IMG/VR virus record: IMGVR_UViG_3300025133_000352
Location: 1 to 35,016 of that record
Length of the DNA stretch: 35,016 bases
Source of the DNA: a virus
Direction: 5' to 3' (one strand)
Part shown: positions 12,646 through 33,500 of the stretch, in pieces
Layout: each line of letters begins with the position of its first letter
Position numbering within the stretch: the stretch's first letter is position 1
Position numbers and translations under genes: made by a program
The notes under the pieces: generated by a model
What the model saw: only the letters and a program-made list of their open reading frames with translations
What the model was told of the DNA's origin: nothing
Databases searched by the model: none

Positions 12646-14499
12646 TCAGGAAGCGCCAGACTCACCAAGAAGTCCTCGGACGATAACGAGACCGTACATA
12701 TCCGGTCGGACCATCTTCTTCGCATAGCGAGTCATGACGCCCTTACGGGGTACGAAATCTTCCGTTCCGAAGATCGTAGGTGTGACCTGCAGTGGTACGT
12801 ATGGAGCGTAAACAAATCCACTTTCGAGGAAGCTACTACCCTTACGACCAACAAGGATCACGTTACGCAGGAAGTAAGGGTCGACATATACGTCCCACTT
12901 CTTGCTGATTGATCCAGACCTGACTGCACCAACCGTTCCACGATCGGAATCGGCGGTCACGCTTGCGCGGAAACCACTGGTGAACTCAAGAATGTTAGCA
13001 ACCTCGGGTGAACAAACGATGAAGTTTGCTCCGCCGCGAAGCGTCTTACGGTGGATCTGAGCTGACACATCATTGATTGTTTCAATGAGAGTCTCATACC
13101 ATTCACTGACAGTACCAGTGAAGTCAGGAGCTGCGGCAGTAGCACCGAGTTCCGCACCAGTCTCGCGATTAACGAAGAGACCCGGAGCACGTGACCAGTG
13201 GTAAGTACCAGCTGTAGCACCCTGAACAAGATCGCCGAGAATTTCACGGTCAATTTCAAGAGCAATCTGCTCTGAAAGAATACCGGTCAACTCAACCTCT
13301 GCGTCCAAGTTGTGATAGGCGTTGAGGTCCTGACCTAATTCAGGGCTCCACTTGGCCTTCAGCTTCTTGGTTACAGCTGTAATGGCGAGAGAATCGACCT
13401 TGATGTCGATCTCTGGAATGGTGTTCTTTGTAGCACCATCAAAAGTACCGTCAGCAGTTGCACTAGCACCTTCAAGGCCCCATGCGTCTGCACCAACAAC
13501 AGCACCAACTTCAGCGGCGGCGTTGAAGTTATCAGCCAATGGATACTTCATGGTGATGTCAGTGTCATGAACGTTGTTCGCAGTTGATGCACCGAGAGTG
13601 TAGAACGAAATGTGCTGGGCTGTTGATCCAGCGACGATTACGCCGTTCGAATCACGGTAACCAAGCTCAGTAAGCCTACGAATACATTCTACTGCGCCAC
13701 CAGCGCCGCCTTCGAGCTGCGTGCCGTCGTCGTCAGTCAGAACTGCGCCGGCAAGTGCCTTAAGGTTAACTGTAGCCATGTTAGCGACACTCAATCTACA
13801 AACGATAGCCGAAACGACCTTGGTCTGATCTGAGTCGTTGAGAAGATCAGCGTCGAAACGAAGTGCTCGCTTCTGGGGTTCACTGAGGGCAGACAGAGCG
13901 ACTGGGGCGGCAAGAATACCACCGGTTGCTGCAGCGTCACCCGCTTCATTATCGACCCAGTCAGTTATTGCGGCATCGGTGTTGGGACCATCACCGAAGC
14001 TAATTGATCCAGTCGGTGAAGAATACGCTGTGCTCAAGTCGTAAAAACCACCTGCGCCTTCGACAGTGTTACCGTCAAGAGAAACGCCATCGGCGAGTCC
14101 TTTACCAACGACGTTACCACCGTGTACGGAAGCACCAGCAGCAACTTCACCCGAACGGGCATCAGTCTTCAAGAAGTCAAGGAAGAAGATGAGACCCGAG
14201 GGCAAACTCATCGGCTGAACCGAGACAAGATCATTAGCGATCAATCCACCGAAAACACGGCGAACGATCGGAAAAGCAACAGCGGCGAAACCTTCAACAT
14301 CACCACCGGCCATTGAGGAAGCCTCACGGAGAAGCTCCTTAGCCTGATTCTCTAAGAGAACGGCCATTGTATTTTTACTGCGATCATCGTCGAGACCCTC
14401 AAGAAGTCCAGTCTTCTCCCATTTAGAGAGAATGGCTGCGCCTTCTTTGGAGACGTCACGTGATACGATGCCTTCAGTCAATTTTTGTAAAACAGACAT
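12646..14499 (-). CDS. Major capsid protein, gp23-like, 617 aa
   Basis: This is the shell subunit of the capsid. T4-type blocks include NTMAVLLENQAKELL, EGFAAVAFPIVRRVFG, DLVSVQPMSLPSGLIFFLDF, and later KLKAKWSPELGQDLNAYHNL with VELTGILSEQIALEIDREIL. T4 gp23 is 521 aa, so there are insertions here, mainly in the Ala/Gly-rich region of residues 130-340. T4 gp23 is cut by the prohead protease after an (I/L)-x-E site near residue 65. The equivalent candidate here is LRE at residues 57-59, just before ASSMAGG, which is inference. AGGAGG is a strong ribosome-binding site. A strong terminator follows, and the scaffold gene is 19 bases upstream. Confidence 0.97.
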   Translation of the reverse strand: MSVLQKLTEGIVSRDVSKEGAAILSKWEKTGLLEGLDDDRSKNTMAVLLENQAKELLREASSMAGGDVEGFAAVAFPIVRRVFGGLIANDLVSVQPMSLPSGLIFFLDFLKTDARSGEVAAGASVHGGNVVGKGLADGVSLDGNTVEGAGGFYDLSTAYSSPTGSISFGDGPNTDAAITDWVDNEAGDAAATGGILAAPVALSALSEPQKRALRFDADLLNDSDQTKVVSAIVCRLSVANMATVNLKALAGAVLTDDDGTQLEGGAGGAVECIRRLTELGYRDSNGVIVAGSTAQHISFYTLGASTANNVHDTDITMKYPLADNFNAAAEVGAVVGADAWGLEGASATADGTFDGATKNTIPEIDIKVDSLAITAVTKKLKAKWSPELGQDLNAYHNLDAEVELTGILSEQIALEIDREILGDLVQGATAGTYHWSRAPGLFVNRETGAELGATAAAPDFTGTVSEWYETLIETINDVSAQIHRKTLRGGANFIVCSPEVANILEFTSGFRASVTADSDRGTVGAVRSGSISKKWDVYVDPYFLRNVILVGRKGSSFLESGFVYAPYVPLQVTPTIFGTEDFVPRKGVMTRYAKKMVRPDMYGLVIVRGLLGESGAS

Positions 14500-14518: not shown

Positions 14519-15613
14519 TTAATTTGTTATGCCTGCTAAACGCTTCATTCTCATAGAGAAGTCTTCGTTTAGAGTTTTTGTCTTCCCTTTGGAAGACACA
14601 ATTAATGAAGGTTTCCTACTAACGGCTTCGCTCAGTGATTTCGGCAATGATTTCTTTTCAGTGCTTCCCACAGTGCTTTGAAGTGTTTCATAAATAACCT
14701 TCGCTTCGTGTGCTGTATCCGCTTTTGAAATAGCTTCGACAATCTTTTCTTTTTGTCGCTCATTCAGGGAGATGCTTTCCAGTGTGCGGTTAATATACAG
14801 CAACTTTGCATTTGAAATGTTAACTTGGTTAAATTTCTCGTGCATTTCTTCAATAACTGCATGGAGCTTTTCATTTTCCTCACCGAGGATGCTCCCTGCA
14901 TTTATAAGATTCTTGTTTTCTTTTGTAAGCTCTTCTACGTTTCCACGGAGTGCTTCCATTTCTGCCTTGACTTCATCGTCGTTCTGCATAGCGAGGTATT
15001 CGTCCTCTGCGTGCTCCATCTCTGAGTCAGGGCGATTGATCCAGCCGCTCTTTTGTGGATTAAGATCAACTGTGAGTTTCTCTAGGAGATCATTAAGGAG
15101 ATCTTCATCCAGAGCTATTTCTTCAACGTTTTCTTCTACTTTTTCTTCTTCGGAGTCTTCGGCTGCAGCCTTCATAGATTCTTCTTTGTCGCCATCTTTA
15201 TCTAAATCCAAGAAGTCAGGCTTTGCTGCTTCTTCTAACGGCATGGACGCGGCGAGTGATTCTTGGCTTTCAGTGTCGTCGCCGTTAAGAGCGCCCTCTT
15301 CTTTGGCCATATCTGCAGTCAATTGATTAAGATCTACTTCGATTGTCTCGTCTTTATCTGGACAACCACAGAGATTTTCACCTTCTGCGAATGCTTGTGG
15401 GGGATCTTGGCTAAGTTCCTGCATCTCTTCAGCTGGAGCGTCTGCGATTGGGTCTTCCTCTTCGAGACCAAACTCATCCTGCTCAAGTATGGTAGACATA
15501 GCTTCCTTTACTTCTGCTGCATATTTTTCAATGATTGCTGTTTCGGCATTTTTGAGTGCCGCTTCTTTCAGCGCCTTAGCATCGATGACGGCTTGCTCTA
15601 ATAACGAAGACAT
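14519..15613 (-). CDS. Prohead core scaffolding protein, gp22-like, 364 aa
   Basis: Scaffold that forms the core of the prohead and is removed by proteolysis during maturation. The composition is typical: a short basic helical N-terminus (VIDAKALKEAALKNAETA), a very acidic region at about residues 45-190, a coiled coil at about 210-265 (EALRGNVEELTKENKNL), and a conserved C-terminal helical block with INRTLESISLNERQKEKIVE and AHEAKVIYETLQSTVG. The basic end includes FSMRMKRLAGITN. It is longer than T4 gp22 (269 aa). It lies immediately upstream of the major capsid gene, as in T4, and an ACTATTTA motif precedes it. Confidence 0.85.
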   Translation of the reverse strand: MSSLLEQAVIDAKALKEAALKNAETAIIEKYAAEVKEAMSTILEQDEFGLEEEDPIADAPAEEMQELSQDPPQAFAEGENLCGCPDKDETIEVDLNQLTADMAKEEGALNGDDTESQESLAASMPLEEAAKPDFLDLDKDGDKEESMKAAAEDSEEEKVEENVEEIALDEDLLNDLLEKLTVDLNPQKSGWINRPDSEMEHAEDEYLAMQNDDEVKAEMEALRGNVEELTKENKNLINAGSILGEENEKLHAVIEEMHEKFNQVNISNAKLLYINRTLESISLNERQKEKIVEAISKADTAHEAKVIYETLQSTVGSTEKKSLPKSLSEAVSRKPSLIVSSKGKTKTLNEDFSMRMKRLAGITN

Positions 15614-15725: not shown

Positions 15726-15995
15726 CTAGTCTGCGACGAAGACAAGGTGCATTAAATGATTTAAACTTTCCTCATCAGGGGGCGTATCTCTAACATGGGC
15801 TTCAATGGGCCTGATGTCTCCAAAGCGCATGCTCAAGTCGCGACGATCTTTGCCGGCCATCCTTGGTCCATGAGTCTGGTCAGGACTTAAAACAAGGAGA
15901 GTCATAACCCATCCGTCATCATCGACGGGCCCGATGGCCAATGCGTGAACTCCTGATTTGTATTTTATGTTGTAAACTTTGCCTTCTGTTATCAT
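15726..15995 (-). CDS. Hypothetical protein, 89 aa
   Basis: The reading MITEGKVYNIKYKSGVHALA followed by IGPVDDDGWVMTLLVLS suggests a small SH3-like beta barrel at the N-terminus. An acidic C-terminal part (RDTPPDEESLNHLMHLVFVAD) follows. GGAGAG lies upstream of the ATG. It is the last gene of the fibre cassette, just before the scaffold promoter region. No family is recognised and there is no signal or membrane segment. Confidence 0.65.
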   Translation of the reverse strand: MITEGKVYNIKYKSGVHALAIGPVDDDGWVMTLLVLSPDQTHGPRMAGKDRRDLSMRFGDIRPIEAHVRDTPPDEESLNHLMHLVFVAD

Positions 15996-16033
15996 TGTAC
16001 TCTCCAGTGCTGCAATTGCACTCTAATTTATTC

Positions 16034-17971
16034 TTATTGTGGTGTCATTTCTACAGTCAGTCGACCATACACGTCACCCGTGCATGAAGCACTTTGTCCG
16101 GCCATGACATAAATCATAGTATCACCCGAGGCGAATGAATGATCCACAGTGCCACTAACATTTATCAACTCATCTCCGTCGTGATTTAAGTTTATTGTAG
16201 CAACGTGCACCAAGGCGATGGCTGAATCTTCAGCTCCGCTGTCGGTCCACCCTGCGGTCGTTGCTTTGAAAAGAAAGATTGCAGGGTCATCAGTATCTGA
16301 GCCGTTGGTCCATCCATGGAACCTGTACCCCGTGCATTTCGAAGAAACATGCGCGGCTCCGATCGATGCATATCTTGCAACAAATCTATAATCGAATCCC
16401 TCCTCAAAAGACTCACCAGAGCCGTCAAAGTTCGTGGCAGAGTCATTCAAAGTAACGCCATATGCACCATTGGCCGACTTGTAATAATATGATCCTGTTC
16501 CTACAGTATTCACCTGCTGTATCGGCTCATTAAATTGATAAGTAGCGCCAGCGCCTTCTCCTCCGCCGGCTGCAGCCTCCCAACCGGGCACTGCACCGTC
16601 CAAAGTGAGGACATGGTTGTCACTACCAACAGCGATGCGGGTAAGAACGCCGCTGGAGTTTCTGTAGTACATATCACCAGATGCATCAGACCCAAGAGCG
16701 AAGCCACCATTTGGAATGTCCAAATCACCAGAAATAGTCACAAGTGAGTCGGCACCGTTACCAATGGTTACATCTACTTCATCTTCAGCTGAGCCGTCGG
16801 CTATTATGAGCCCGGGTTGTGATTCGCCATCATGGGATGCAACTGAGAGTGTCAGCTTTCCGCCCTCTTGACCATCCGTATGAACTGCAACTTGAGACTT
16901 AATCTCAGAGAACAGAACCTGATCTTGGTTAGCATCATCGGCGTAGAACTCTATGAGACCTGCTACGTCATTGGCTGCACCTGCTGCGCCCTTATCTTTA
17001 ACAAAGCGGAGTCTTGCACCATCAGCATCACTTGTAGTGTTCTTAATAATAAATAACGGATCGGTTGCGTTAGCAGAAGCCACTGTTACCGTGTCGGTAT
17101 CAATAGTAACTGCGGTAGAGGCGTCAATGTCCAAAGTTGGAGCAGTGACGTTAATAATTGAATCAGCGTCAATCCCCAACTCTCCATCGGCTTGCTGTTG
17201 AATAAAGCATGCAGAGTCGCCGAACATGAGTTTGGTTGTTCCAACGCCAGATGCATCTGATAGAAGAAGACCTGTGTCGTGTACGTGTGTGAGAGTTACT
17301 TCGCCGTCAGCGCCAAACTTAATTGCTGCGCCGTCGGTCTTGAATGCGACACCTGCTGCAGCGTCGAGGATCCTGAAGTTTTCTGCGTCTCCATTGTCTG
17401 TAAAGATCAGATCTTTTGCATTGGTAACTAGCTTTACTGTGACGTCGCCAGAGTTACCCTCAGTGATGGTTAAAACAGAAGATCCGCCGTCTTGTATATC
17501 TATAATGCCTGTAACAGAATCGAGAGTGACGTTGCCAGAACTAGTTGATGCGATCTTAACCCCAGTATGTCCGTCTAGCTCTGTGCTGCCGGCATTAGAA
17601 TCAATTGTTATATTTCCGGTCGACGTTGAAATGCTTACCGCGGCGTCACCTGCTGAAATATCGTCAGCTGCTGTCGAGCCGCCGCCAGTGGCAGTTAAAT
17701 CTGTTTCGGAAATATCATAAGAGCGCCAATAGATCTTGCCATCAGATTTCGTATAAAGATAACCCTTGCCATTTGCAGGTTGGGCGGGCGTACTGCTCTC
17801 TGACGATATGGCTATCTTCCCCGCTACGTCTAACTCAGCAATGCACTGTGACGTACCAATACCAACCTTAGAAAAAGAACCAGTACCGCAAATATCCATA
17901 CTTCCAGTAACTTGGATGAGGTCTCCACATGAGCCCGATGATTGAATCCTACCTAGATGAATGCCTGCCAT
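16034..17971 (-). CDS. Tail fibre / adhesin-like virion protein, 645 aa
   Basis: Beta-rich fibre-type protein. The N-terminus (MAGIHLGRIQSSGSCGDLIQ) leads into a VGIGTSQ element. A long series of Asp/Thr/Ser/Gly repeats follows, including VSISTSTGNITIDSNAGS and TLTHVHDTGLLLSDASG; the latter recurs in the 900-aa fibre. The C-terminal domain of about 165 residues looks globular and non-repetitive (FNEPIQQVNTVGTGSYYY, FRFHGWTNGSDTDDPA-type strands, LTVEMTPQ at the end) and is a good candidate for receptor binding. No S74 chaperone domain is present in this protein. It is four bases after the 144-aa gene, whose Glu-rich 3' end supplies the ribosome-binding site GAGGAA. Confidence 0.8.
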   Translation of the reverse strand: MAGIHLGRIQSSGSCGDLIQVTGSMDICGTGSFSKVGIGTSQCIAELDVAGKIAISSESSTPAQPANGKGYLYTKSDGKIYWRSYDISETDLTATGGGSTAADDISAGDAAVSISTSTGNITIDSNAGSTELDGHTGVKIASTSSGNVTLDSVTGIIDIQDGGSSVLTITEGNSGDVTVKLVTNAKDLIFTDNGDAENFRILDAAAGVAFKTDGAAIKFGADGEVTLTHVHDTGLLLSDASGVGTTKLMFGDSACFIQQQADGELGIDADSIINVTAPTLDIDASTAVTIDTDTVTVASANATDPLFIIKNTTSDADGARLRFVKDKGAAGAANDVAGLIEFYADDANQDQVLFSEIKSQVAVHTDGQEGGKLTLSVASHDGESQPGLIIADGSAEDEVDVTIGNGADSLVTISGDLDIPNGGFALGSDASGDMYYRNSSGVLTRIAVGSDNHVLTLDGAVPGWEAAAGGGEGAGATYQFNEPIQQVNTVGTGSYYYKSANGAYGVTLNDSATNFDGSGESFEEGFDYRFVARYASIGAAHVSSKCTGYRFHGWTNGSDTDDPAIFLFKATTAGWTDSGAEDSAIALVHVATINLNHDGDELINVSGTVDHSFASGDTMIYVMAGQSASCTGDVYGRLTVEMTPQ

Positions 17972-17975
17972 GTTT

Positions 17976-18410
17976 TTATTCCTCTTCTGTTAGTTCCTTA
18001 AGAACCATTTCATATAATTTGCCGGTAATGTTGTTTTTTACAACCAGTTTATCTCTCTTTTCGTAAATAGTCCAGTCGCCCTCTTTATTCCTCAAATGTA
18101 AGTCGCCTGTATAAACATTTGCAAAACGTTTTGAAGCGGAACCTAAATTGTAAGTACTGTCGGCTGATGGTATAATACTACCTGTCATTCCAAAAGTGCC
18201 CTTGAACGCATGATGGTCACCCGTTGAGTCGCCGAAGGTAGTAGATCCGTATTGCTCAACTTTAGAGACAATCACTTCGGTTGACTCAACAACGTATTGT
18301 TGAGCATATATTGCGCCAGATATATGAAGATTACCTGTCACGACATGGTCGCTTCCAGATAGTGCAAGTTCTGAATTGATAATACTGTTTGATGATACAA
18401 AGAAGCTCAT
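17976..18410 (-). CDS. Small fibre protein with shared C-terminal domain, 144 aa
   Basis: This looks like a short version of the 340-aa fibre at 20055-21077. Both have a GSTTFGD or GSTVFGD element, a phage-fibre turn (YNLGS-(A/S)-(S/T)-(K/Q)-RFANVYTGDLHL) and a closing GDWTI plus a NN-(I/A)-TGK segment. It lacks the two 102-residue repeats of that protein. It may assemble with the larger fibre as an alternative end piece or act as a minor adhesin. The start overlaps the end of the preceding gene region: AGGGAAAG in that gene's 3' end acts as the ribosome-binding site. Confidence 0.75.
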   Translation of the reverse strand: MSFFVSSNSIINSELALSGSDHVVTGNLHISGAIYAQQYVVESTEVIVSKVEQYGSTTFGDSTGDHHAFKGTFGMTGSIIPSADSTYNLGSASKRFANVYTGDLHLRNKEGDWTIYEKRDKLVVKNNITGKLYEMVLKELTEEE

Positions 18411-18411
18411 T

Positions 18412-18975
18412 TTACTTTCCCTCGTTGACTGCTAAGCCGAGTGTACTGTCATTTTCGCCGGCAACAAGACCAGCAGTAGTTAAACCAGAGCCAGTGAGAG
18501 GAAACATACTTCCGCTAGGAATTGATGTCAATTCTGCTATGACTTGATAATATCCGAGACCGTCGTCGCCGCTGGTGTATCTGTGTGTCTTTAGTTTTGT
18601 TGTGTTAGCACCAGTTCCGCCATTAGCAGCATTGTTTGCTACGCGAGCTACAGTGGGGCGATATATATAAACTTCTGTACATTTCGTGTCCATTGTCAAA
18701 GCTGCTCCGTGCGATGATAATTGCCAATAGTGCTCACCTTTAAAGTGTTCTGCATCCTGATCGTCGCCTACTGGGTTGGAGCCGCTGGCAAAAAATACAA
18801 AAATTGGCCGGGTTAACCTCCTGTGATTGCGGATTGTCACGCTCTTTGCGACAGTTGGGAATTTTATCCTGTGAGTTTCACCTATTGCAAGCGCAATTGA
18901 GCCGGTCATCCAGACTGATCCTGCTGATTTGTAAGACTCAGAATTTCGAAGACCTGAACTATAATTAAACGGCAT
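18412..18975 (-). CDS. Virion protein, paralogue A of a tandem pair, 187 aa
   Basis: Beta-rich protein homologous to the next upstream gene. Shared elements in order are GLRN-x-x-SY, G-(S/T)-VWMTGS, HRI-(K/R)-FP, KS-(V/L)-TI-(R/N)-N, FFASGS-x-P, AEHFKG-(E/M)-HY, KCTEVYIYR and AELT-x-I-x-SGSM-x-x-LTGSGL. Such proteins in T4-like aquatic phages are usually annotated only as virion structural proteins. This copy carries an extra Asn/Gly/Thr-rich insert (NNAANGGTGANTT) and a longer C-terminus. AGGAG lies upstream of the ATG. Function beyond being part of the fibre cassette is unknown. Confidence 0.75.
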   Translation of the reverse strand: MPFNYSSGLRNSESYKSAGSVWMTGSIALAIGETHRIKFPTVAKSVTIRNHRRLTRPIFVFFASGSNPVGDDQDAEHFKGEHYWQLSSHGAALTMDTKCTEVYIYRPTVARVANNAANGGTGANTTKLKTHRYTSGDDGLGYYQVIAELTSIPSGSMFPLTGSGLTTAGLVAGENDSTLGLAVNEGK

Positions 18976-18988
18976 CAGCTATCTCCTA

Positions 18989-19504
18989 TCACGTCGCCGA
19001 CCAATAATTGGCATGAAGATCGTTGGTGGCATCAGTCAGGCCAGATCCAGTGAGCGCGTACATGCTTCCAGATAAGATACCTGTCAACTCAGCAAACATC
19101 TGATACGTCGCATTAGTTGCAGCCTCTCGGTTTGAGCCTGCGCCGGAAGCTGTTGTTCCTGAGTTGACTTCTCGATAAATATACACTTCAGTACATTTAA
19201 CATCAACACTTAGGGTCGATCCACCCTCTAATGAAAAATAGTGCATACCCTTGAAGTGCTCTGCATTATCTCTATCTGCTTGTGGTTCTGACCCACTAGC
19301 GAAGAAAACACGGAGTGTGTGCTCGTTTGCGCCGCCGGTGGGGCTCATGTTGTTTATTGTTAGACTCTTTGTGACATAAGGAAACCTTATCCTATGTTCG
19401 ACGTCTGGTGCGATTGTAGAGCCAGTCATCCAAACTGTGCCCGGGACAAGGTACGAGTTAGTGTTTCTTAGTCCAACTCCGGGATTTCCATTATAAGTTG
19501 CCAT
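18989..19504 (-). CDS. Virion protein, paralogue B of a tandem pair, 171 aa
   Basis: Paralogue of the 187-aa product downstream, with the same ordered motifs (GLRNTNSY, GTVWMTGS, HRIRFP, FFASGS, AEHFKGMHYFSL, KCTEVYIYR, LTGSGL). The two differ most in the middle loop after TEVYIYR and in the last 15 residues. The pair probably arose by tandem duplication, since only 13 bases separate them. AAGGAGG lies about 20 bases upstream of the ATG with a weaker GAAGGG nearer. Likely a small beta-sandwich subunit of a virion appendage. Confidence 0.75.
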   Translation of the reverse strand: MATYNGNPGVGLRNTNSYLVPGTVWMTGSTIAPDVEHRIRFPYVTKSLTINNMSPTGGANEHTLRVFFASGSEPQADRDNAEHFKGMHYFSLEGGSTLSVDVKCTEVYIYREVNSGTTASGAGSNREAATNATYQMFAELTGILSGSMYALTGSGLTDATNDLHANYWSAT

Positions 19505-19537
19505 TGTTATTGCCCTTCAACCTCCTTGTTGCTAGAT

Positions 19538-19975
19538 CTAGAAAGTTGAACATGCGGCAAAGATATTAACTTCTGAGGCGTCTAATGCAAAGAAAGCAAC
19601 GCGGTCGACGCCTGCGATCTCATAACATCGATATTGACGCAGATCTGGGGTTTGATTCGCTGGAGCGAGATCAGCATCTTCGCCTGCTATATTTACTTCG
19701 GTTGAACCACCAACCGTTGTGGATAGCGGAAACCACCTCAAGAAAGCATGGCAGTACCCGTAAACAGTTACGGTCTCGCCGTTATCTTCATTGCTATCTT
19801 CAACCAAAACGTGCAAATATCTTTGATTCTCGGTCGGGTACCCTTGCGTCCCAATCGCAGATGTAACGCCGCGAAGAGTGTTTAGGGTTTCCACCGGCGT
19901 TACGGTGCCACCCTGAGTGCCAGTCAAGTTTTTCGGGCTTCGTGTCCTGCCCCAACTTGTGTGCTTAAATGCCAT
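19538..19975 (-). CDS. Hypothetical virion-associated protein, 145 aa
   Basis: The N-terminus is basic (MAFKHTSWGRTRSPKN), followed by a beta-rich body including RYLHVLVEDSNEDNGETVTV, YGYCHAFLRWFPLS and DLRQYRCYEIAGVDRVAFFA. There is no signal or membrane segment. Size, composition and position in the fibre cassette fit a small virion subunit, but I recognise no family. AGGAG precedes the ATG. Confidence 0.65.
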   Translation of the reverse strand: MAFKHTSWGRTRSPKNLTGTQGGTVTPVETLNTLRGVTSAIGTQGYPTENQRYLHVLVEDSNEDNGETVTVYGYCHAFLRWFPLSTTVGGSTEVNIAGEDADLAPANQTPDLRQYRCYEIAGVDRVAFFALDASEVNIFAACSTF

Positions 19976-20054
19976 CTATATACTCTCCTAACCAAACATT
20001 TTCTCTACTAATTAGTGCAAGAAAGTGCAAAATACTTCGCTATTTCTTCAACAA

Positions 20055-21077
20055 TTATTCTGGCAGCTGTTCCAGCATCATCTTGTATTTTTTACCTGTT
20101 GCATTATTGATAACACATAAGAAATCTTCTTCTTCAAGAATCGTCCAGTCGCCGCGTTCATTCTTCAGATGAAGGTCACCAGTATATACGTTTGCGAATC
20201 TCTGTGTCGAGGAACCCAAATTGTATGTAATGTTTGCTCCCGGCAAAATACTGCCAGTTACATTGATGCCACCATTGACATCCAGCTTTGCTACTGGACT
20301 AGTAGTGCCTATGCCAACTTTGCCAGCGCTAGTAATCCGCACTCTTTCTGCCGGGGTTGTATCATCAACAGCGGTGTGAAAAACCATAGCAGAAGCAGAA
20401 TCAGCGTCACTTTCTGCTTCCTTGACAACCGCTACGGTGCCGCCGTGGTCAGAGCCGCCAGTTTCGCCAACATAAAAAGTAATGCCGGGGCCGTGACCAG
20501 CAGCCATGTCGACGCCGGCATCTTCCACCTCTAACCGTAACATCTCTAATGGCAATGCCGAGGCCGCGATGGCTGTCTTATATAAGTGTGTCAGTGCTGC
20601 TGGGCTGTTTGTCCCTATGCCAACATTGCCCGTGCTGCCAATCCGCATTCTCTCTGCGGGATAGGTATCATCAATAGCAGTATGAAAAACCATGGCGGAA
20701 GCGGAGTCGGCATCGCCTTCCGCCTCTCTGACGACTGCGACCGTGCCGCCCCAGTCAGTGCCACTAGTCTCCCCAACATAAAAAGTGATGCCCGGGCCAT
20801 GGCCAGCAGCCATATCGACGCCGGTGTCTTCCACTTCCAATCTTAACATTTCCAATGGGGTCGGAGTTGCCGAAACTGCTGGCTTATACAAGTGTGCTAA
20901 TGCCGCAGGGCTAGATTTGCCAAAGCCAACATTTCCAGTAAAATAATGGGTATCATCTGAAGTGTCGCCGAAGACGGTTGAGCCAGAAGTCGTGACCTGA
21001 AACTTCATTGAGTTGGCTGTGATCGACCCTGTAACTATGAGGTCTCCGTTAACAGTAGTGCTTAAAAGAGTTGCCAT
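20055..21077 (-). CDS. Tail fibre protein with two 102-aa repeats, 340 aa
   Basis: Fibre protein built from three parts. Residues 1-49 are an N-terminal domain with GSTVFGDTSDDTHYFTG. Residues 50-151 and 152-253 are two tandem repeats, each starting VG-(F/I)-G-x-x-SPAAL and containing PLEMLRLEVED, GVDMAAGHGPGITFYVGET, GGTVAVV and DADSASAMVFHTA. Residues 254-340 begin a third VGIGTTSP turn and end in the YNLGSSTQRFANVYTGDLHL domain with GDWTILEEEDF. The last domain is shared with the 144-aa protein at 17976-18410. The VGIG-x-x-SP element is common in phage fibres whose assembly is helped by an S74 chaperone, and an S74 gene lies three bases upstream. Confidence 0.8.
   Translation of the reverse strand: MATLLSTTVNGDLIVTGSITANSMKFQVTTSGSTVFGDTSDDTHYFTGNVGFGKSSPAALAHLYKPAVSATPTPLEMLRLEVEDTGVDMAAGHGPGITFYVGETSGTDWGGTVAVVREAEGDADSASAMVFHTAIDDTYPAERMRIGSTGNVGIGTNSPAALTHLYKTAIAASALPLEMLRLEVEDAGVDMAAGHGPGITFYVGETGGSDHGGTVAVVKEAESDADSASAMVFHTAVDDTTPAERVRITSAGKVGIGTTSPVAKLDVNGGINVTGSILPGANITYNLGSSTQRFANVYTGDLHLKNERGDWTILEEEDFLCVINNATGKKYKMMLEQLPE
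20319..20930 (-). repeat. Two 306-bp tandem repeats in the fibre gene
   Basis: The units 20625-20930 and 20319-20624 are in-frame tandem copies (306 bases, 102 codons). Their products are closely similar, with changes concentrated near the unit starts and in a variable loop after YVGET. Confidence 0.85.
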
Positions 21078-21080
21078 GCT

Positions 21081-21848
21081 CTAACGTTCTCCCCCTAAGT
21101 TCTTTAGTTTTTCTTCTTGTTCTTTGATTTTATTACTTAATTCTTTGATCGACTCCAACAGCACTGCTGTCATCTTACTGTAAGACACAGCAACTGGCTT
21201 GTTGTTTTCATCCTTTTTGACAAGTTCAGGAAAGACTTCGTCCAGCTCCTCTGCAATAAATCCGAAACTTTCATCTCCGGAATCTTTGTATTCAAACTTG
21301 ACGGCATTTATCTTCTCTACGTTGTGGAGTTGAGGGCCGATTACTTCTATGTTATCTTTGATATCTCTGGAAGATGATTCTGTGAACGATCCTACGACTT
21401 GGACGTTTGTTCCACTGGTGGTAATCGAAGAGTCGAAATTCCTAACCCTAAAATATTTTCCGGTTCCTTCTGCCACAACCCAATCGCCCTTATCCCACAC
21501 TGTAATAGCCGGAGAATTGTCGATTGCGGACGTCAGTGACAACCCACTAGATGATCCAGTGGTGACAATAAAGTAATCGCCCTTATTGATTGTTCCAGAA
21601 ATACCTGCTGCTGTGGCTGTGCTCTGAGACGCATCACAAGCGCCCTTGAAAGTTACTCCTCCTGCCATTTGTATTGCTCTCCTTAAACTTAGCACGCCCG
21701 GGTGGGCTAGTTTTAAAATGGCTTGGCCCGGGCCTTGGTCATCGTTTCCGTCATTAGTGCTCGTAAATTGAGATCCGAGGCCAGTATTTTTTGTTATGAT
21801 GCCTGATGCATCGGATGGTACTCTACCTCTACCCATGTTGATACTCAC
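21081..21848 (-). CDS. Fibre-associated protein with S74 intramolecular chaperone domain, 255 aa
   Basis: The C-terminal ~100 residues are a peptidase S74 / endosialidase-type chaperone domain. They begin with a Ser-rich SSSRDIKDNIEVIG at residues 158-171 and continue with FGFIAEELDEVFPELV at 195-210 and VSYSKMTAVLLESIKEL at 221-237. The end is a Lys/Glu-rich coiled coil. Such domains trimerise and fold beta fibres and then usually cut themselves off at a Ser, using a Lys five residues on. Ser159 and Lys164 have that spacing, although the usual SD-x-R-x-K motif is altered. Residues 60-155 form a beta domain with GDYFIVTTG and WDKGDWVVAEG. The ribosome-binding site is weak (GTGAG). It is the first fibre gene of the cassette. 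Confidence 0.85.
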   Translation of the reverse strand: MSINMGRGRVPSDASGIITKNTGLGSQFTSTNDGNDDQGPGQAILKLAHPGVLSLRRAIQMAGGVTFKGACDASQSTATAAGISGTINKGDYFIVTTGSSSGLSLTSAIDNSPAITVWDKGDWVVAEGTGKYFRVRNFDSSITTSGTNVQVVGSFTESSSRDIKDNIEVIGPQLHNVEKINAVKFEYKDSGDESFGFIAEELDEVFPELVKKDENNKPVAVSYSKMTAVLLESIKELSNKIKEQEEKLKNLGGER

Positions 21849-21886: not shown

Positions 21887-22111
21887 TTATTTACCTTTTT
21901 TGCGCTTGAGGGCTTCTATTTCAAGAACGCGTTTCTTTTTGCGGTTTCTTCTATTTTTCTTGGAGGAGGGCTTCTCAAAGTATCTTCTGTCTCGAACTTC
22001 GTCCAAAATACCACATTTCTTAACCTTTCGGCTAAACTTTTTGATCATTCTTTCTAGTTCGTCTTGACTGTATATTTCTATCTCAACGTTTATTGGTGTT
22101 CTTCTACCCAT
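21887..22111 (-). CDS. rpsU: Ribosomal protein bS21 homologue, 74 aa
   Basis: Phage-encoded homologue of the small-subunit protein bS21, which sits near the anti-Shine-Dalgarno end of 16S rRNA and aids translation initiation. The diagnostic core is residues 24-53: KKFSRKVKKCGILDEVRDRR followed by YFEKPSSKKN. This matches the bacterial pattern of a basic (F/L)-K-R helix, (G/A)-(I/V)-L-x-E-(V/L)-(R/K), then R-x-(Y/F)-(Y/F)-E-K-P-(S/T). A strongly basic helix (RRNRKKKRVLEIEALKRKKG) follows, as in bS21. The length of 74 aa is normal for the family. AGGAAC lies upstream of the ATG. It stands between the prohead protease block and the fibre cassette, implying late expression. bS21 is among the ribosomal proteins known from phage genomes. 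Assembly into host ribosomes is inference. Confidence 0.88.
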   Translation of the reverse strand: MGRRTPINVEIEIYSQDELERMIKKFSRKVKKCGILDEVRDRRYFEKPSSKKNRRNRKKKRVLEIEALKRKKGK

Positions 22112-22124
22112 TGGTGTTCCTAAA

Positions 22125-22553
22125 TTAAATTAATTTTTTCCAGACCTTTGATTGTTCTCCAAAGATCGATGCAATATCAACACCCCCATCTTTTGGATCA
22201 ATGCCCGAGAATGGAGAAGTCGGGCTGGAGGACGGGCCTGTAGTTCCGCCAGAAGGCATCGGGGTTGTATTTTCAAACAAGTCAATTCCGTTATAAGAAT
22301 CGCTTCCGATGGCGTCTAGCATTTTCTTCCTGTTTTCTTGAAGCTTTCGTCGAGCGGCTTCTTCAGTTGCCTCTATTTCTTCTTGTGAAGGAGAATCGTT
22401 TGGTATCACTTCTTTTACCACTGTTGGGTGGCGAGTCAGACCTGAAGCTATTTCAGTAACTATACCTGACAAAACGCCTTCCTCAAATAGTGATTCTTTA
22501 ATACACTCTTTTATGAGAGGTTTAAGGATCTTTTTCAAATCTTCTTTGTTCAT
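22125..22553 (-). CDS. Conserved hypothetical protein, possible prohead-associated, 142 aa
   Basis: The N-terminus is an amphipathic helix (DLKKILKPLIKECIKESLFE). A charged helical part around residues 55-80 (EEIEATEEAARRKLQENRKK) and a Pro/Ser/Gly/Thr-rich linker (TTPMPSGGTTGPSSSPTSPF) follow. The end is SIFGEQSKVWKKLI. It is probably largely disordered with helical ends, like minor prohead core or scaffold-binding proteins. Its start codon lies one base past the protease stop region, so translation is likely coupled. No family function is known to me. Confidence 0.65.
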   Translation of the reverse strand: MNKEDLKKILKPLIKECIKESLFEEGVLSGIVTEIASGLTRHPTVVKEVIPNDSPSQEEIEATEEAARRKLQENRKKMLDAIGSDSYNGIDLFENTTPMPSGGTTGPSSSPTSPFSGIDPKDGGVDIASIFGEQSKVWKKLI

Positions 22554-22554
22554 A

Positions 22555-23154
22555 CTATCTTCGTTTCAAAATGTCATTTAAGGCGCGATTGATTTTATCA
22601 GCCTTGTTAAATATGTTTGGAATCTTTTTGGCTTCTGTTACCATGAAGGCATTGGGAGTCGATGGCTCTGAAACCATGTCGAAACAGATTAACTGAAAGT
22701 CGTCTCCAACTGTTGTGACTCCATTCGACTCATGTACCGAACCCATCCCTCTAGATGAGATACCGCACGGTATATTTGATTTAATAAGAGACTTTAAAAT
22801 CTGCCCAGATGGAGTCTCTAAAACCTCTATCTTCCCCCTCACCACTCCATCGTTCATCCAAATATCAGTGACAACGTGAGATGCATTCTTTAAGTTTATT
22901 ACTGAGTCGTCTGGATGGTCGAGTTCGCCTAGTGCCCTGCGCTCATCAACAAGCTTCTTATAGTTCTTGACCTCTCGTGCTAGCACGCTTTCAGGATAAA
23001 CACGACCGTTGTGGTTTTTTGTTTCTGCCATTTGCATAATACCAGAAAGTATCACAGCGCCTTCGTCACGAACGCGGCGTTTTTCATCCTCAGTTAGCAA
23101 GTCTTGACATATGCCACCGTCGCAAAGTTCATAATATTCTCTAAGAAGTTTCAT
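22555..23154 (-). CDS. Prohead maturation protease, gp21-like, 199 aa
   Basis: Serine protease that cuts scaffold and capsid subunits during head maturation (T4 gp21-type family). Visible catalytic motifs are the His in ALGELDHPDD (His80) and the Ser in IPCGISSRGMGS (Ser133/134). A downstream Asp in ICFDMVSEPS (Asp159) is probably the third member. The N-terminal half includes GAVILSGIMQMAETKNHNGR and YPESVLAREV, typical of this family. The length of 199 aa is close to T4 gp21 (212 aa). The upstream leader of about 100 bases has a GC-rich hairpin just before the ribosome-binding site GAGGAAC. Confidence 0.93.
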   Translation of the reverse strand: MKLLREYYELCDGGICQDLLTEDEKRRVRDEGAVILSGIMQMAETKNHNGRVYPESVLAREVKNYKKLVDERRALGELDHPDDSVINLKNASHVVTDIWMNDGVVRGKIEVLETPSGQILKSLIKSNIPCGISSRGMGSVHESNGVTTVGDDFQLICFDMVSEPSTPNAFMVTEAKKIPNIFNKADKINRALNDILKRR

Positions 23155-24176: not shown

Positions 24177-24997
24177 TAGGTCGTCAACTCTTCGCTCAAG
24201 TTCTGTATTTTCAATATGTCGATGATATCATTCTCTGTTAATTCTCTTGTACTGAACGATTCCAAAATATTGAGGACTTCGTTTGTTTTTTCTGTCATTG
24301 CTTTATCTTCCGAAATCTCAGGCATAGACACAGATTCTCGGACGGTTTCTTTGAGACGCCCGATCTCTTCATTAGCATATACTCGGAAGGATATTCCGTC
24401 ATCAGCGAAAGATAAAATATACTTACTGAGAAACTCCTTTTGAGATTCGTTTAGCTTATTCCCGTAAGATTCATTGAATTTTGAAACGAAAGACTTATAA
24501 ACCAAATTATCTATTGGGGTCTTTTCTGACTCTTCTTTTGCTGTTTCGCTAGTGAGTGTTTCTATTACTTTTTCCTCTAGCAGTACTCTCTGTTTTACGT
24601 TCATGTCGCGATTAAATAGGGAATAGACTGTTGCTATGTTTCTATAGTTTGGAACAAAGTTATTAAAAATCTCACCTGCGAAGGTTTTATTTATTTTATT
24701 TATCAATTCACTCTGTGTGTTGAATATTTCCTTCTTGCTCAAATCAGAGTAAGCTAATTTTGTTTCGAATAATAGTTTCTCGGCAGTGTTTTTCTTCAGT
24801 CCGGTAGTTTCTGTGAGAGTCCTGTATAATTCTAACTCTTGAGTTAAGATAGAATTTGCGTTGAAAAACTCCCTTATAAGAGATACGACTTTTTGCTTTC
24901 TATTTGAGTTGTTTTTTATTATTGATTTGACCAACTCTCGATGCATTGCTTCGTAAATAAGGGCCGTGTTTCGTTTCTTATTGTGCTTAAGTCTCAT
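24176..24997 (-). CDS. Conserved hypothetical helical protein after portal, 273 aa
   Basis: Almost entirely alpha-helical and charged. It opens with LKHNKKRNTALIYEAMHREL and continues with VKSIIKNNSNRKQKVVSLI. Several further helices follow, such as KEFLSKYILSFADDG and ENDIIDILKIQNLSEEL. It starts inside the last codons of the portal gene (11-base overlap) and ends overlapping the next gene, so the three are translated together. Placement between portal and protease suggests a prohead core or connector-assembly role, which is inference. I recognise no catalytic motif. Confidence 0.7.
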   Translation of the reverse strand: MRLKHNKKRNTALIYEAMHRELVKSIIKNNSNRKQKVVSLIREFFNANSILTQELELYRTLTETTGLKKNTAEKLLFETKLAYSDLSKKEIFNTQSELINKINKTFAGEIFNNFVPNYRNIATVYSLFNRDMNVKQRVLLEEKVIETLTSETAKEESEKTPIDNLVYKSFVSKFNESYGNKLNESQKEFLSKYILSFADDGISFRVYANEEIGRLKETVRESVSMPEISEDKAMTEKTNEVLNILESFSTRELTENDIIDILKIQNLSEELTT

Positions 24998-26918
24998 CTT
25001 TGTTCCTCATTTTTTCGTTTAGGCTATTGATCAGATTCTTAACTTCCTTGCTCATTTCAAAAATCTGTCTCTCTTCCTTTAAGTAATTAGTGTCTTTTGA
25101 CTCGTATAATCCGGATAATTCAGAATAACCTTTCATGGTGTTTCTCTTGGTGTTCTTGCCCACTTCAGTCGCCACCGAGCCTAACATCCTCTTGCGGCGG
25201 CCGGCTACTCTTCTCATATCTTTTGAAGGATGTTTTAGTTTATAGGCACTTTTCTCATACCTCCTTACATCATCCCTCTTTCCGGGAGGGGCAGGCGATG
25301 GGGTATCCGGTGACACAATTAGCGGACTATCCGCTTCGGGCTCATCTAAGTCTTCAGGGTCAAAATCAGGAAGACCCTCTGGCGACTCCAGATCATCCCC
25401 CAACTCTACATCTGCTGCGTCTCCGCCCTCAAGTGTGCCCGAGGCACTATAAGCCGCGGCCTGTTCGGCTTCGCCGGCAACTTCTAGTGAAGATTCAAAC
25501 TTTCTGTCATAGAACATCTCTCTCTGATTTCTTAAGAATTCTTCTTCAGACATTCCAAAAAGCTTTCTCGCCAGCCAGCGGTGACTAAAGAAGCCTTCAG
25601 TTGCTTTTGATGCAGTGTCAAATTTAGCACCCCAATGCTCAAGCTCCTGAAGCTCTGCGATCTTCGATGGATTATTTAAACTCAACTTGAATGAGAGTAA
25701 ATCTTCTGAGCGGAAGCCCAGTACATAAAGATGAATTAAGCCAATCTTCTCCAATTCCGTAATGACTGAGCGCTGAAGTCTTTGTATGGTTCTCGCAAAG
25801 CGAATATCCTTTTGTGCAAGGGTTGTCTTGTCTTCGTCAGCGCCTTCGCCTCTTGACATGTAAGACTGTGGCACCTTAAGTGCAGAGAATAGTTTATCCC
25901 TAAGATACTTTACATCCTCGATGTCACCAGTGTAAGTGCCACCCGGCAAAGTTTCGACCCTTGAGTTGGTGCCACCTCGAACTGGAATAAAGTAATCTTC
26001 ATCAACCGACATTGGATTGTAGCGAAGGTCTACTCGGCCAGTGTTAGCATCCACAACTTGATGGCGTTTCATTTGAGTCATTACTTTTTGCATGTATTGC
26101 TCTACGTCTTGGGTTGGAACATTGCCAACGTCGACATAGAAAACTCTTCTCTCTGGTGATCGTACTATTCGATATGCCATCATGGCATCCTCAAGAAGAG
26201 TGAGTTGTCTCCAGATTCTTCGCGCAGGTTCAAGTGCAGAGCTACCATATGGTGCGTATTTATCGTTGCCCAGAATTCTAAAATGTGCAACTTGCCAGTT
26301 TTCAAAAGTCATACCACCAGAGTTCCATTGATACTGAACATAGTTGGGGTTTGTCCTATCTTCGCCTTCAAGACGCTCAAGCTCACTAGTTGGAAGACCT
26401 ATAACACTTGATACTCCTATCTTCTCGTCGATGTCTAAATACAAAAAGAAGTCCCCGTACTTGCACATCGAACGACACCAACCAAAAAGATTGAACTCTA
26501 CATTCATTATGTCGTGATATAGTGAATATAATAAACTAGAAATCTCCTCGTTGGGGCAATCTATTGTTAATAGCGGTTGAAGTCTAGATGATGTGGTCAT
26601 TTCGTCTGCATAGATGTCTAGAGCTGAGGCGATCTCTGGGGTATACTCCATCTGATCGAAGTCGACATATCGTTCCGTTCGCTGCTGGTTGGACATGACA
26701 TTTGCCTGCAGGTTGTCGAAAGGATTGTAAGAAACCTTCTTAAAGTTCTGACCAGAGGCTGATTTGAATCTCGACGCGTAATAATCTAATTGTCTTCTAC
26801 GCAGTCTGTGGTTTGTTTGTGTCCTATGATTTACAAGAGGGCCAGACAAAAGCCTTGTTAGCTTCTTAAATAATGTAGAGTTTTCATTGTTCGGATTCTG
26901 TTGATTAGTGTCTGACAT
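24987..26918 (-). CDS. Portal protein, gp20-like, 643 aa
   Basis: Dodecameric portal at the head vertex through which DNA is packaged and ejected. T4-type blocks are visible: MEYTPEIASALDIYADEMTT (residues 90-109), YAPYGSSALEPARRIWRQLT (221-240), YRIVRSPERRVFYVDVGN (249-266), YFIPVRGG (309-316), and DKLFSALKVPQSYMSR (341-356). T4 gp20 is 524 aa. The extra length here is mainly a C-terminal acidic/Pro-rich region (about 480-570), then a basic stretch (RRVAGRRKRMLGS). It lies directly after the terminase gene with a 5-base gap. The ribosome-binding site is weak, so coupling to the terminase is likely. Confidence 0.95.
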   Translation of the reverse strand: MSDTNQQNPNNENSTLFKKLTRLLSGPLVNHRTQTNHRLRRRQLDYYASRFKSASGQNFKKVSYNPFDNLQANVMSNQQRTERYVDFDQMEYTPEIASALDIYADEMTTSSRLQPLLTIDCPNEEISSLLYSLYHDIMNVEFNLFGWCRSMCKYGDFFLYLDIDEKIGVSSVIGLPTSELERLEGEDRTNPNYVQYQWNSGGMTFENWQVAHFRILGNDKYAPYGSSALEPARRIWRQLTLLEDAMMAYRIVRSPERRVFYVDVGNVPTQDVEQYMQKVMTQMKRHQVVDANTGRVDLRYNPMSVDEDYFIPVRGGTNSRVETLPGGTYTGDIEDVKYLRDKLFSALKVPQSYMSRGEGADEDKTTLAQKDIRFARTIQRLQRSVITELEKIGLIHLYVLGFRSEDLLSFKLSLNNPSKIAELQELEHWGAKFDTASKATEGFFSHRWLARKLFGMSEEEFLRNQREMFYDRKFESSLEVAGEAEQAAAYSASGTLEGGDAADVELGDDLESPEGLPDFDPEDLDEPEADSPLIVSPDTPSPAPPGKRDDVRRYEKSAYKLKHPSKDMRRVAGRRKRMLGSVATEVGKNTKRNTMKGYSELSGLYESKDTNYLKEERQIFEMSKEVKNLINSLNEKMRNKDET

Positions 26919-26923
26919 TTATA

Positions 26924-28510
26924 TTACCCTTTGTAGAGCCACGAAAACTGCTCTTGATTTTTTCTATGCTCTGCCATCTTATCAAATGTTGAGTCATTTT
27001 TATAGTGATTTTGGCCGGGAATGTTGGTATTCAAGCTTGTATTCACTTTTATCATAGAATCTAACATCACTTTCTTATATTCAATATCTCTATAACTATC
27101 TGTTAACACCGTGTCACGGATCCAGCACCCAATAGAACAAGCCAAAACCAAGTCATCGTTGTATGATCTCATAGCTTCTGGCTTTCCGTGATTCCAGACA
27201 AAAGTCTTCATTTCCCCATGGAGTCTCGAAGAATATATTTTAATTAGTTTATTTCTTATGAATTCTTCCATCTTAGCGATGATAAGTGGCCTAGTTTTAG
27301 AAGAGGTGGTAAAACCAGCGACGGCGTTGCTTTTATATTCCGCCTCAAGGGCTGTAATATATTCGTGAGTCGACTTTATAGAATGGTATACGTTTTCGTA
27401 ACCCTTTTCTTTTAACTTTTGCAAAACAGCAAACCCTACTGAATTATTCTCAACCACCAGCATGCATGTACCGTACTCTTTTCCTGCACTATAAAGAACG
27501 TCTGCGAAAATGTCCGGGGCTATCTTTCCCTGATACTCTGCAACTATCTCCATCGTATTTACGTTAAACACGTGAAACACTGAGTAATCTTTTCCATCGC
27601 CCCTTGCTACATCGGCTGAAATAAAATACTCACTGTCTGGTTCGCGTTCTTTCCAGATCCAGTAATTTCTGTCAAAGCCCGTTCTGTATTTCGGCTCGCA
27701 AATCAAACTCTCTACAAAGGACATATCGTCAGAATGAAACACAGTCTCGCCAGACATATTAAAGTTACACTCAAGCTCTTGAGCAATTTCTCGTCGAGAC
27801 ATATTCTTTGTTTCTTTTTCGAACCATTCTTGATCTCGGTCTGGGTGGACATCCCACAACAATTTAGTAGGAAAGAAGTCATTCGATTGATGCTCCGCTT
27901 CGGAGTACGTCTTGTGAAACCAATTGCCTACGCCGTTTGGAGTGGATAATGCAATGCAGCGGCCGCCGGTGGACAAAGTAGGGTATAGGCCCATCCACAA
28001 CTCACCCAAACCTTCAACGTGGGCGGCTTCGTCGATCACCAAGAGCGATAGAGCCTCAGAACGACCAGCGTCCCCACTAGTTGAGGATGCTTTAATCTGA
28101 GAGCCATTGTACAACTGAAAAGACGTTCTGTTATCTATTGCTACATCCGAGATTCTTATCCATGGAGGTAAGTTCTTTAGAATTAATTTAACTTTTTTGA
28201 CAAGATTGGCAGCGGTGCCAAACTTTGTTGCAATGACGAGAACGTTCTTTTCTCGATGAAACATCATAAGCCAAACAACATATGCAGCAGTAACAGTAGA
28301 AATACCTAGCTGCCGCGCTTTAAGAATGACATTAAAACGATTGTCGTTAAAATTGTCAATCAAATCTTTTTGGAAGTCATATAGACGAAAAGGTATCAGA
28401 CCCCTCTGTGGGTGGGATATCTTTGCGTAGTTCGTTATAAAATAGGATGGATCGCGGCCGCAACGAACGACCTCTTTCATAATCTCTTTCTTGGAAAGTC
28501 GATATGTCAT
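26924..28510 (-). CDS. Terminase large subunit, gp17-like, 528 aa
   Basis: DNA packaging motor with N-terminal ATPase and C-terminal nuclease. The P-loop-type segment is LKARQLGISTVTAAYV (residues 63-78), Walker B is LLVIDEAAHVE (156-166), and the coupling motif is ALSTPNG (187-193). The RNase H-like nuclease residues are Asp300 in FISADVARGDGKDY, Glu354 in LVVENNSVGF, and Asp452/453 in SYNDDLVLA. T4 gp17 is 610 aa. The usual lysine of the P-loop (T4 RQLGKT) is replaced by isoleucine here, a variation seen in other phage terminases with an ARQLG-x-(S/T)-T motif, where an upstream Lys or Arg is thought to serve. It lies ten bases after the pre-terminase gene and five before portal. Confidence 0.95.
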   Translation of the reverse strand: MTYRLSKKEIMKEVVRCGRDPSYFITNYAKISHPQRGLIPFRLYDFQKDLIDNFNDNRFNVILKARQLGISTVTAAYVVWLMMFHREKNVLVIATKFGTAANLVKKVKLILKNLPPWIRISDVAIDNRTSFQLYNGSQIKASSTSGDAGRSEALSLLVIDEAAHVEGLGELWMGLYPTLSTGGRCIALSTPNGVGNWFHKTYSEAEHQSNDFFPTKLLWDVHPDRDQEWFEKETKNMSRREIAQELECNFNMSGETVFHSDDMSFVESLICEPKYRTGFDRNYWIWKEREPDSEYFISADVARGDGKDYSVFHVFNVNTMEIVAEYQGKIAPDIFADVLYSAGKEYGTCMLVVENNSVGFAVLQKLKEKGYENVYHSIKSTHEYITALEAEYKSNAVAGFTTSSKTRPLIIAKMEEFIRNKLIKIYSSRLHGEMKTFVWNHGKPEAMRSYNDDLVLACSIGCWIRDTVLTDSYRDIEYKKVMLDSMIKVNTSLNTNIPGQNHYKNDSTFDKMAEHRKNQEQFSWLYKG

Positions 28511-30588: not shown

Positions 30589-33500
30589 CTACATATCAAT
30601 ATGGGCATAGCCATTGTATTTATCTATTATTATCTGCGAATCAACGCAATCTTTTAAAGCATCTAAGTGAGATATTAATACCACAGTTTTGAAGTAATTT
30701 TTAACCATATCTAATATTCTCACAAAACCTTCCATGTTCTCTTCGTCCAGAGCGGTGCCGGGTTCATCCAGAATAAACACATCAGGTTTTGGCAAGCTTG
30801 ATACCGACAGAAACGCTAGTCGAATTGCCATTGATGCGATAGTCTTCTCGGCGCCCGAGCCCAACTCCAGTGGTCTCGGTGAGTGCTTCGGGTGTTTTAT
30901 ATAGATATTCAGTTTATTGCTATCGTTTTCTATAAAAACCTCAAATTCAACAATATTAGTTAAAATCTTGGCTATCTCAGTGTTAATCAAAGGCAGACTC
31001 TTCTTGATGATATCGTAAGAAATACCATTAGGGTGACAACAAGTCCCAAGCAAATGATAAGCAGAGTACTCAACACTCAAGTCGTCCATTGTCTGCTTTT
31101 GTTCCTTTAGGGTTTCAAGCCGATGCTCCAAAGAACCGTTCTGCTTATAAAGCATCATCACCTGTTCTTGACATTCAACATGTTCTTTTTCTTTTTCACC
31201 TCTTTGTTCCACCAACGTATTACGAGTTACAATAAGGGCTTCAAGATTTTCTATTGCCTCTTTGTTATTTTCGTAATCCAAAATCTTAGATCTTAAATTA
31301 TCTGCCTCCATGTCGTTCTTTACCAGTTCCATATCGTTCTTCTCTAGTCGGATTTGATCGGAAGTCAAGGACGAGGCTATAGAATTCTTTCTATCAACCA
31401 CTTGTTGATATCTTTCTAGATGTTTCGTCACCGTGTTCGGATCCAAATCGTCAATAGAGTTTCGAAGAAATACGGTCTGATTTGCGTATTCGATCGCTCG
31501 CTTTTCGCAGATTTGAATCAAATCACTAGCTTCATATGCATCTCTGATAAACTTACAGTGAGAAAACTCTGATCCACAAGGCACTTCATCGAGTCTGGTC
31601 TTCTTCTTTCTATTTCTCTCTAACTCTTCTGTTTGGCGCTGAATCTTCGAAGCGATTTCTTCTAGTTCTTTTGTCTTATCTTTTATTAAGACGTCTTTAG
31701 ACAAAACCTCCTCTAGATCAAATGTATCTAAAAATGCGACAATTTTCTCGTAAAAGGCATTTCGCTCAGTAATGGATTCCTGAAGGCGGGCACTTTCCTC
31801 TCTTATCTCTATTGACCTCTTAGTCGAATTAGACAAATCCCTCTTAACTGATGTGATATTTATTATTTCAGCCGGAACTGATTCTATGTCTGACTGTATT
31901 TCTTGTATTTGTTCGTTGAGTTCGCCTATCTCTTGCGACAACCTCACACAACCTTCTTTGTTCCTATCTGTTAAAATCAGACTCTTTTCGATATCAAGTT
32001 CCGTGTCTGCTATTTCTTGTTTATAGTCGCGACCTTCGAGCTTCTTGAGGGCCCCTTTTGTCTCTTGGGAATCCTCTTTAACCATCTTAAACTTACGATC
32101 AAAAACTTCGAGATCCAGAAACTTTGCTAAAATCTCCTTCCTCTTTGTTGACCCCTCGTTAATGAAGGACAAAGAACCCAATTGGCTAGACATTGACGTC
32201 ATCAAGAAATCATCTATGGATCCAAAAACTCTTCTTATATTTTTATCGGTATCTTGTCTAGATAACCCGTTCATGCTGATTTTATTACCCAACATGTCTT
32301 GCTGATAGAAGTTAACGTCTGTCTTTGCTTCTTCGGTTTCTTCACCCTTGAGTCTCTTAATATATTTTTCAGAATTTCTCTCTACTACATATTCTTTATC
32401 GTTCACGCAGATAGAAACTCTACCAACAGCTTCGTCTTTATTTTGATTGATTATATTCAAGTTTCTTCGAACAGGCTTTGAAGTAGAGTTGTATATAGTG
32501 TACAATAAGCTGTCCACTATCGAGGATTTTCCAGAAAAATTCTTACCAAATATTCCGACTATTCCATTCAACTTTTCGAAATTAATCTTGTTTCCCTCTC
32601 CATAGTTAAAGAGGTTGCTCCATTCGAGACCACGAAGAGACCAGTTAACGTTTCTAGATACTTCCTCATTTTGTTCTACTACGGAGTTGTATTTCTGATT
32701 CAATTGGAGTACCTTTTTCATCACTCCCTCTTCCATTTGGAAGTCCTTTAGGTATTCCTTGATTAAATTCTCTTGGACCTTGATGTCTCTCAGGTCCTCT
32801 TGGCCTAGGTTGTTTGTGATATTTTCAACCGATATGTTCTCTCCCGCGGCCCTATTCAGAAATGTGATCGCCTCTGGCTTAAACCTGTGTTTTGCAATCT
32901 GCACTGCCCTTCTTACTTTGTCTAGGGAAATATTTGTTGACGAAACTAACCTCAGTCGTGCTCCCTCTGGAACTGTTAGTTTATTAGGCATTCTGCCCTT
33001 AGGGGTTAGATTAATCGTAATAAAGGGTTTAGGGTTAACAAAGGAAATATGCTCAACTGTGAAGTCATCCTTGTCCTCAATGTCCCAAAGCAAATAACCT
33101 TTATCTAGAGATTCTCCAAAATTCTGCTGAACAGTGGATCCACAATACCTGATTCGACCAGCATCATCGAGGGTTTGTGCCTTGTGGATATCTCCAAGCA
33201 TCGCAAAATCGAATTCATCAAATATGTCAATATTGTGATCGACAGACTCCATTATCCATCCGATATCAGTTGAACAACTAAGCACGGATCCATGATATAG
33301 TGCAATGTTAACCTTGCTTGGGTCCGATGGAGAAGTCCAATTATCCTCATCAAACACAGAAAGAACGTTCAAGGTATGGGATTCGTCGATCTGTACCTCG
33401 CCGGCATCTTTTAACAGGTGCAACTGAGGGTGGCTCATTGCGTCTACTATTGGAGTTATCGCATCCTGACGACTACTATTTTTGAGATTGCCGTCGTGAT

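Follow-up and report, generated by a model that had tools for sequence, protein, structure and literature searches.

The window analyzed here is a linear IMG/VR virus record of 35,016 bases (IMGVR_UViG_3300025133_000352) that holds a single gene for ribosomal protein bS21, located among the head genes of a myovirus. The product of this open reading frame (ORF 21887-22111) contains the motif GILDEVRDRRYFEKPS and a tail rich in Lys/Arg, on which the first-pass annotation had based its assignment to bS21. Profile searches bear this assignment out, with scores above both curated cut-offs for Pfam PF01165 Ribosomal_S21 (38.9 bits, cut-off 27, E 6.8e-10) and for the NCBIfam equivalog TIGR00030 S21p (38.4 bits, cut-off 28.95). 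PHROG 21469 ("ribosomal protein S21") matches as well (E 4.6e-9), and the PDB contributes more than 30 matching bS21 chains from solved ribosome structures (best E 7.5e-7). The ORF is a genuine bS21, and a chance match is ruled out because the gene and its slot are conserved in more than 100 related loci.

Conserved residues of the bS21 core (F26, K29, K31, K32, K47, P48, and S49, each in at least 83% of the family) argue for retained ribosome binding, and the N-terminus of the phage family is approximately 7 residues longer than in E. coli-type bS21. An AlphaFold2 model built from a 13-sequence alignment (mean predicted local distance difference test score 82, predicted template-modelling score 0.41) contains helices at residues 16-33, 35-43, and 48-73, which resemble those of bS21. 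The comparison of this model with the PDB by Foldseek is less clear: mitochondrial bS21m chains rank first (probability 0.92-0.95, template-modelling score 0.62), at non-significant E-values of 0.18-0.24. We take this fold match as supportive only; such weak E-values may be expectable for a small, extended, rRNA-bound protein.

All assigned genes of the window lie on the minus strand. They are transcribed in the order Mre11-Rad50-like fusion, terL, portal, three short ORFs, prohead protease, a 142-amino-acid (aa) ORF and bS21, followed by a fibre cassette, a scaffold-position ORF, the gp23-type capsid gene, and neck and sheath genes. The features on which the comparison rests are the following.

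26924..28510, minus strand: terminase large subunit terL, gp17-like (PF03237)
24987..26918, minus strand: portal protein, gp20-like (PHROG 213, E 9.7e-77)
22555..23154, minus strand: T4-type prohead core protease, gp21-like (PF03420 95 bits, PHROG 207)
22125..22553, minus strand: conserved 142-aa neighbour directly upstream of bS21 (same-strand homologues in bS21 loci)
21887..22111, minus strand: bS21 (rpsU-like) gene, 74 aa, ATG start (profile and PDB matches, AlphaFold2 model)
15726..21836, minus strand: variable fibre cassette downstream of bS21 (Peptidase_S74 and tail-fibre PHROGs for 21081-21836)
14519..15613, minus strand: scaffold-like ORF (position before gp23, conservation)
12646..14499, minus strand: major capsid protein, gp23-like (PF07068 238.6 bits)

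A place between the prohead block and the fibre cassette had been read from the sequence on first pass, and it is upheld by the protease match on one side and by the S74-chaperone tail-fibre ORF 21081-21836 on the downstream side. The protease and the 142-aa ORF are separated by 1 bp, the 142-aa ORF and bS21 by 13 bp, and bS21 and the next ORF by approximately 50 bp; no terminator-like hairpin was found on the minus strand between 21800 and 22600. Co-transcription of bS21 with the prohead protease is therefore likely.

The position of bS21 is shared by its relatives. A scan based on bS21 gave 16 viral loci, 10 of which (L002-L011) have the head block, in the same order and on the same strand wherever the flanks reach. 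So that loci were not picked by bS21 itself, a second scan used the prohead protease, and bS21 was then sought nearby; the 80 protease loci are the nearest to a query alignment in which most sequences came from bS21 loci, and thus speak for this lineage rather than for T4-like phages generally. When at least 3.5 kb was available downstream of the protease, a downstream bS21 on the same strand was present in 43 of 44 loci. In the exception, L070, the protease is followed by the fibre cassette and only then by the 142-aa gene, which lies on the next stretch of the same contig (L233) with a divergent bS21-like ORF (E 1.1e-5) after it. Conversely, when bS21 was the anchor and the protease lay within reach, the latter was upstream on the same strand in 72/72 loci. 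The same-strand slot in 43/44 loci, together with the divergent ORF in the 44th, marks bS21 as part of the core late module in this myovirus lineage. An origin as a host gene or by misassembly was rejected, as the slot is kept across many independent viral contigs. At locus L067, too, the slot is occupied by a divergent bS21-like ORF (E 2e-6). Both ORFs (843-1145, reverse complement, in L233; 8087-8347 in L067) are strongly diverged and missed by the Pfam model, which suggests fast drift or altered function in some members. No bS21 was detected in Flavobacterium phage immuto (protease 45% identical); in Microcystis phage Mel-JY01 (protease 43% identical), bS21 occupies the same slot.

The 142-aa gene occurs on the same strand in 139 bS21-carrying loci (partly overlapping, as the two scans fetched some of the same contigs); in 114 of them, the two genes are -20 to 60 bp apart. 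The pair stays together, whether the fibre cassette precedes it (L005, L070) or follows it, as in the window. The cassette itself contains repeated paralogous ORFs (18412/18989, 17976/20055), and its place relative to the pair is not the same in all relatives, a pattern like that of a swapping hot spot. The motif [LI]xE[AG], of the prohead-protease type, is found in 87/87 capsid proteins, 91/93 scaffold proteins, and 113/146 members of the 142-aa family; the neighbour is probably a head-core protein, even though the window copy is one of those that lack the motif. These counts bear on a role of bS21 in the virion, where it would be repurposed as a basic protein inside the head and perhaps injected with the DNA. 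Its fixed position beside the prohead-core genes would suit such a role, and packaging of bS21 has been raised as a possibility (Chen et al., 2022, ISME Commun, PMC9723584). Only 6/152 bS21 members carry the motif, although fewer chance matches are expected in a short protein, and the ribosomal core motif is retained; processing of bS21 by the prohead protease is made unlikely by these counts, and we consider a head role very improbable.

Protease and bS21 distances co-vary across 112 distinct loci (Mantel r 0.46, maximum of 2000 permutations 0.14), which is consistent with long co-inheritance. The ratio of nonsynonymous to synonymous substitution (dN/dS) in close pairs is approximately 0.14, a rough value from 15 pairs with synonymous sites near saturation in many pairs, and suggests purifying selection. 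In a bS21 tree of 79 columns, 73 of the 77 phage sequences form one group (support 97/94), apart from 24 proteobacterial and 17 Verrucomicrobia-side sequences; the bacterial sampling covers two phyla plus one outlier. Placing the host lineage by such a phylogeny, as had been proposed on first pass, did not succeed, since with few columns and two phyla the tree groups the phage proteins and names no donor or host.

A scan of genomes returned three relatives only, one of which (L100) is a contig of the same phage lineage. This 24-kb contig (L100/L127, GTDB contig PBOB01000007.1) is binned in an Acidiferrobacteraceae metagenome-assembled genome and is also an IMG/VR viral contig; it carries the head block of this phage lineage with bS21, so that the assembled genome holds two bS21 genes, one of them from a phage.

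The separate phage group bears on the idea that the gene merely supplies bS21 against a shortfall late in infection, replacing a loosely bound ribosomal protein and leaving specificity unchanged. bS21 is indeed one of the ribosomal proteins that can pass from one ribosome to another (Mizuno et al., 2019, Nat Commun, PMC6375957), and the window gene has an ordinary Shine-Dalgarno (SD) sequence, an AGGA match just upstream. The group of its own in the tree, within the sampling given above, and the longer N-terminus together suggest specialization, and we regard simple supply as unlikely.

SD matches of at least 4 nt precede 82% of the window genes, vs. 18% of the background. The corresponding values are 14% vs. 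24% in immuto and 66% vs. 11% in Mel-JY01. Family-wide, the signal is strong for capsid genes (at least 5 nt in 90%) and moderate for bS21 (at least 4 nt in 67%). From this SD usage, the host very probably initiates translation by SD pairing. Work on F. johnsoniae explains anti-SD occlusion in Bacteroidia (PMC9976891). The equivalent of position 54 of F. johnsoniae bS21 is R61 in the window protein, and among 111 family members it is R in 71, K in 19, A in 16, and Y in one (aromatic 1/111). A host of the Bacteroidia type is thus argued against by the SD usage of the window compared with that of immuto, and by the missing Y54.

Phage bS21 genes are known. bS21 is the commonest viral ribosomal protein, mostly in aquatic viruses, and that of Pelagibacter phage HTVC008M enters E. 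coli 30S subunits and 70S ribosomes (PMC6375957). In the phages of Chen et al., bS21 lies beside TerL, portal, prohead protease, and the major capsid protein (MCP), its transcripts are high at the late stage, and the prohead protease is at most 10 genes away in 310/900 published bS21 phages (PMC9723584). The late setting, which had been singled out on first pass as deserving attention, therefore follows a published pattern. The Bacteroidetes phages of that study resemble the present lineage in that bS21 lies in the terL-portal-protease-MCP region of large myoviruses, next to a conserved hypothetical gene. They differ in strand: their bS21 is opposite to the head genes, whereas that of the window, like that of all 72 relatives with a protease in reach, shares the strand of these genes. 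They are freshwater phages with predicted Bacteroidetes hosts and keep an aromatic residue at position 54, whereas the genes of this lineage carry SDs and the equivalent residue is R, K, or A. HTVC008M is a marine myovirus with a bS21 of the same Pfam family; in contrast to it, the bS21 of the window lineage keeps to one position within the head block, and a tblastn search with the window bS21 gave no HTVC008M match at E 0.01. Closest in layout is the RpsU of Mel-JY01 (PP395634.1), 42% identical to the window bS21 over 57 aa, with the same strand and order: terminase, portal, prohead protease, one ORF, RpsU, scaffold-position ORF, and capsid. Unlike in the window, no fibre cassette separates RpsU from the capsid gene, and the ORF between protease and RpsU has no detectable relation to the 142-aa protein. 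Phage bS21 in a head-gene setting was already described in 2019-2022, and the present lineage adds one more case, delimited more closely. The present analysis contributes the near-universal occurrence of this setting within a single SD-using lineage, the layout on one strand, and the constant 142-aa partner, with no claim that these are absent from published supplementary data.

Two further features of the window lie outside the bS21 region. The adjacent ORFs 1-1428 and 1477-4569 (minus strand) have near-identical starts (MSASKFKF.SPGVFL.EID.SR.PAE) and resemble a tandem pair of tail-sheath paralogues; sheath domains are present in the second, and the first leaves the window. At 30589-33735 (minus strand), an ORF of 1048 aa combines a Metallophos domain (Mre11/SbcD/gp47-like, residues 1-152) with an SMC domain (Rad50/SbcC/gp46-like, residues 368-1020). 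Eight of the nine relatives searched match this fusion at approximately full length in one frame (one with an in-frame TGA), and in the ninth, near a contig end, the match is limited to residues 423-1047. The Mre11-Rad50 fusion seems unusual.

The place of bS21 in the 30S subunit is next to the 3' end of 16S rRNA. We propose that phage bS21 would be produced along with the prohead protease and the head-core proteins and, as inferred from HTVC008M (Mizuno et al., 2019), would enter host 30S subunits by exchange while virions are being made. Once ribosome-bound, it might keep or retune initiation in favor of the abundant phage late mRNAs. This last step is hypothetical, and an initiation bias toward phage mRNAs is likewise a hypothesis in both earlier studies (PMC9723584; PMC6375957). 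Overall, we consider exchange into host subunits with a preference for phage late mRNAs, by a bS21 made alongside head proteins, to be on balance probable.

Several points weigh against this proposal. The T4-type late promoter TATAAATA is not enriched upstream of the head genes, and the excess that the window shows when one mismatch is allowed falls on both strands. "Late" expression of the window bS21 is inferred from operon position only. Sigma-70-like sites in our search were at chance level. The phage SDs are canonical, and no unusual mRNA feature is evident for a phage bS21 to select. Moreover, E. coli ribosomes with tagged HTVC008M bS21 translated GFP in vitro at approximately 5% of the control (PMC6375957), so that inhibition of host translation is as compatible with this result as a preference for phage mRNA. 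Phage bS21 could accordingly act as a translational poison that replaces host bS21 and lowers host initiation generally, with phage mRNAs winning by abundance alone, and the canonical SDs, free of any special motif, fit this too. E. coli was a heterologous host in that assay, however, and incompatibility may be the cause, as the authors themselves note (PMC6375957); a general inhibitor would also be costly if made alongside capsid proteins. General shut-off appears to us distinctly unlikely.

A more far-reaching reading is that bS21 is an obligatory core function coupled to head production in this marine T4-like lineage. The ribosomes of SD-using bacteria would be made phage-specific by another route than the anti-SD occlusion of Bacteroidia: position 54 lacks an aromatic residue, and the N-terminus facing the mRNA is longer. 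This reading is tentative, and we hold it possible but doubtful. The findings indicate that a phage bS21 need not be a sporadic auxiliary gene and can belong to the core of the late module, apparently by co-inheritance. As the genes of this lineage use SDs, the question of mRNA selection by phage bS21 would become testable in an ordinary SD system, in which the occlusion mechanism of Bacteroidia does not apply.
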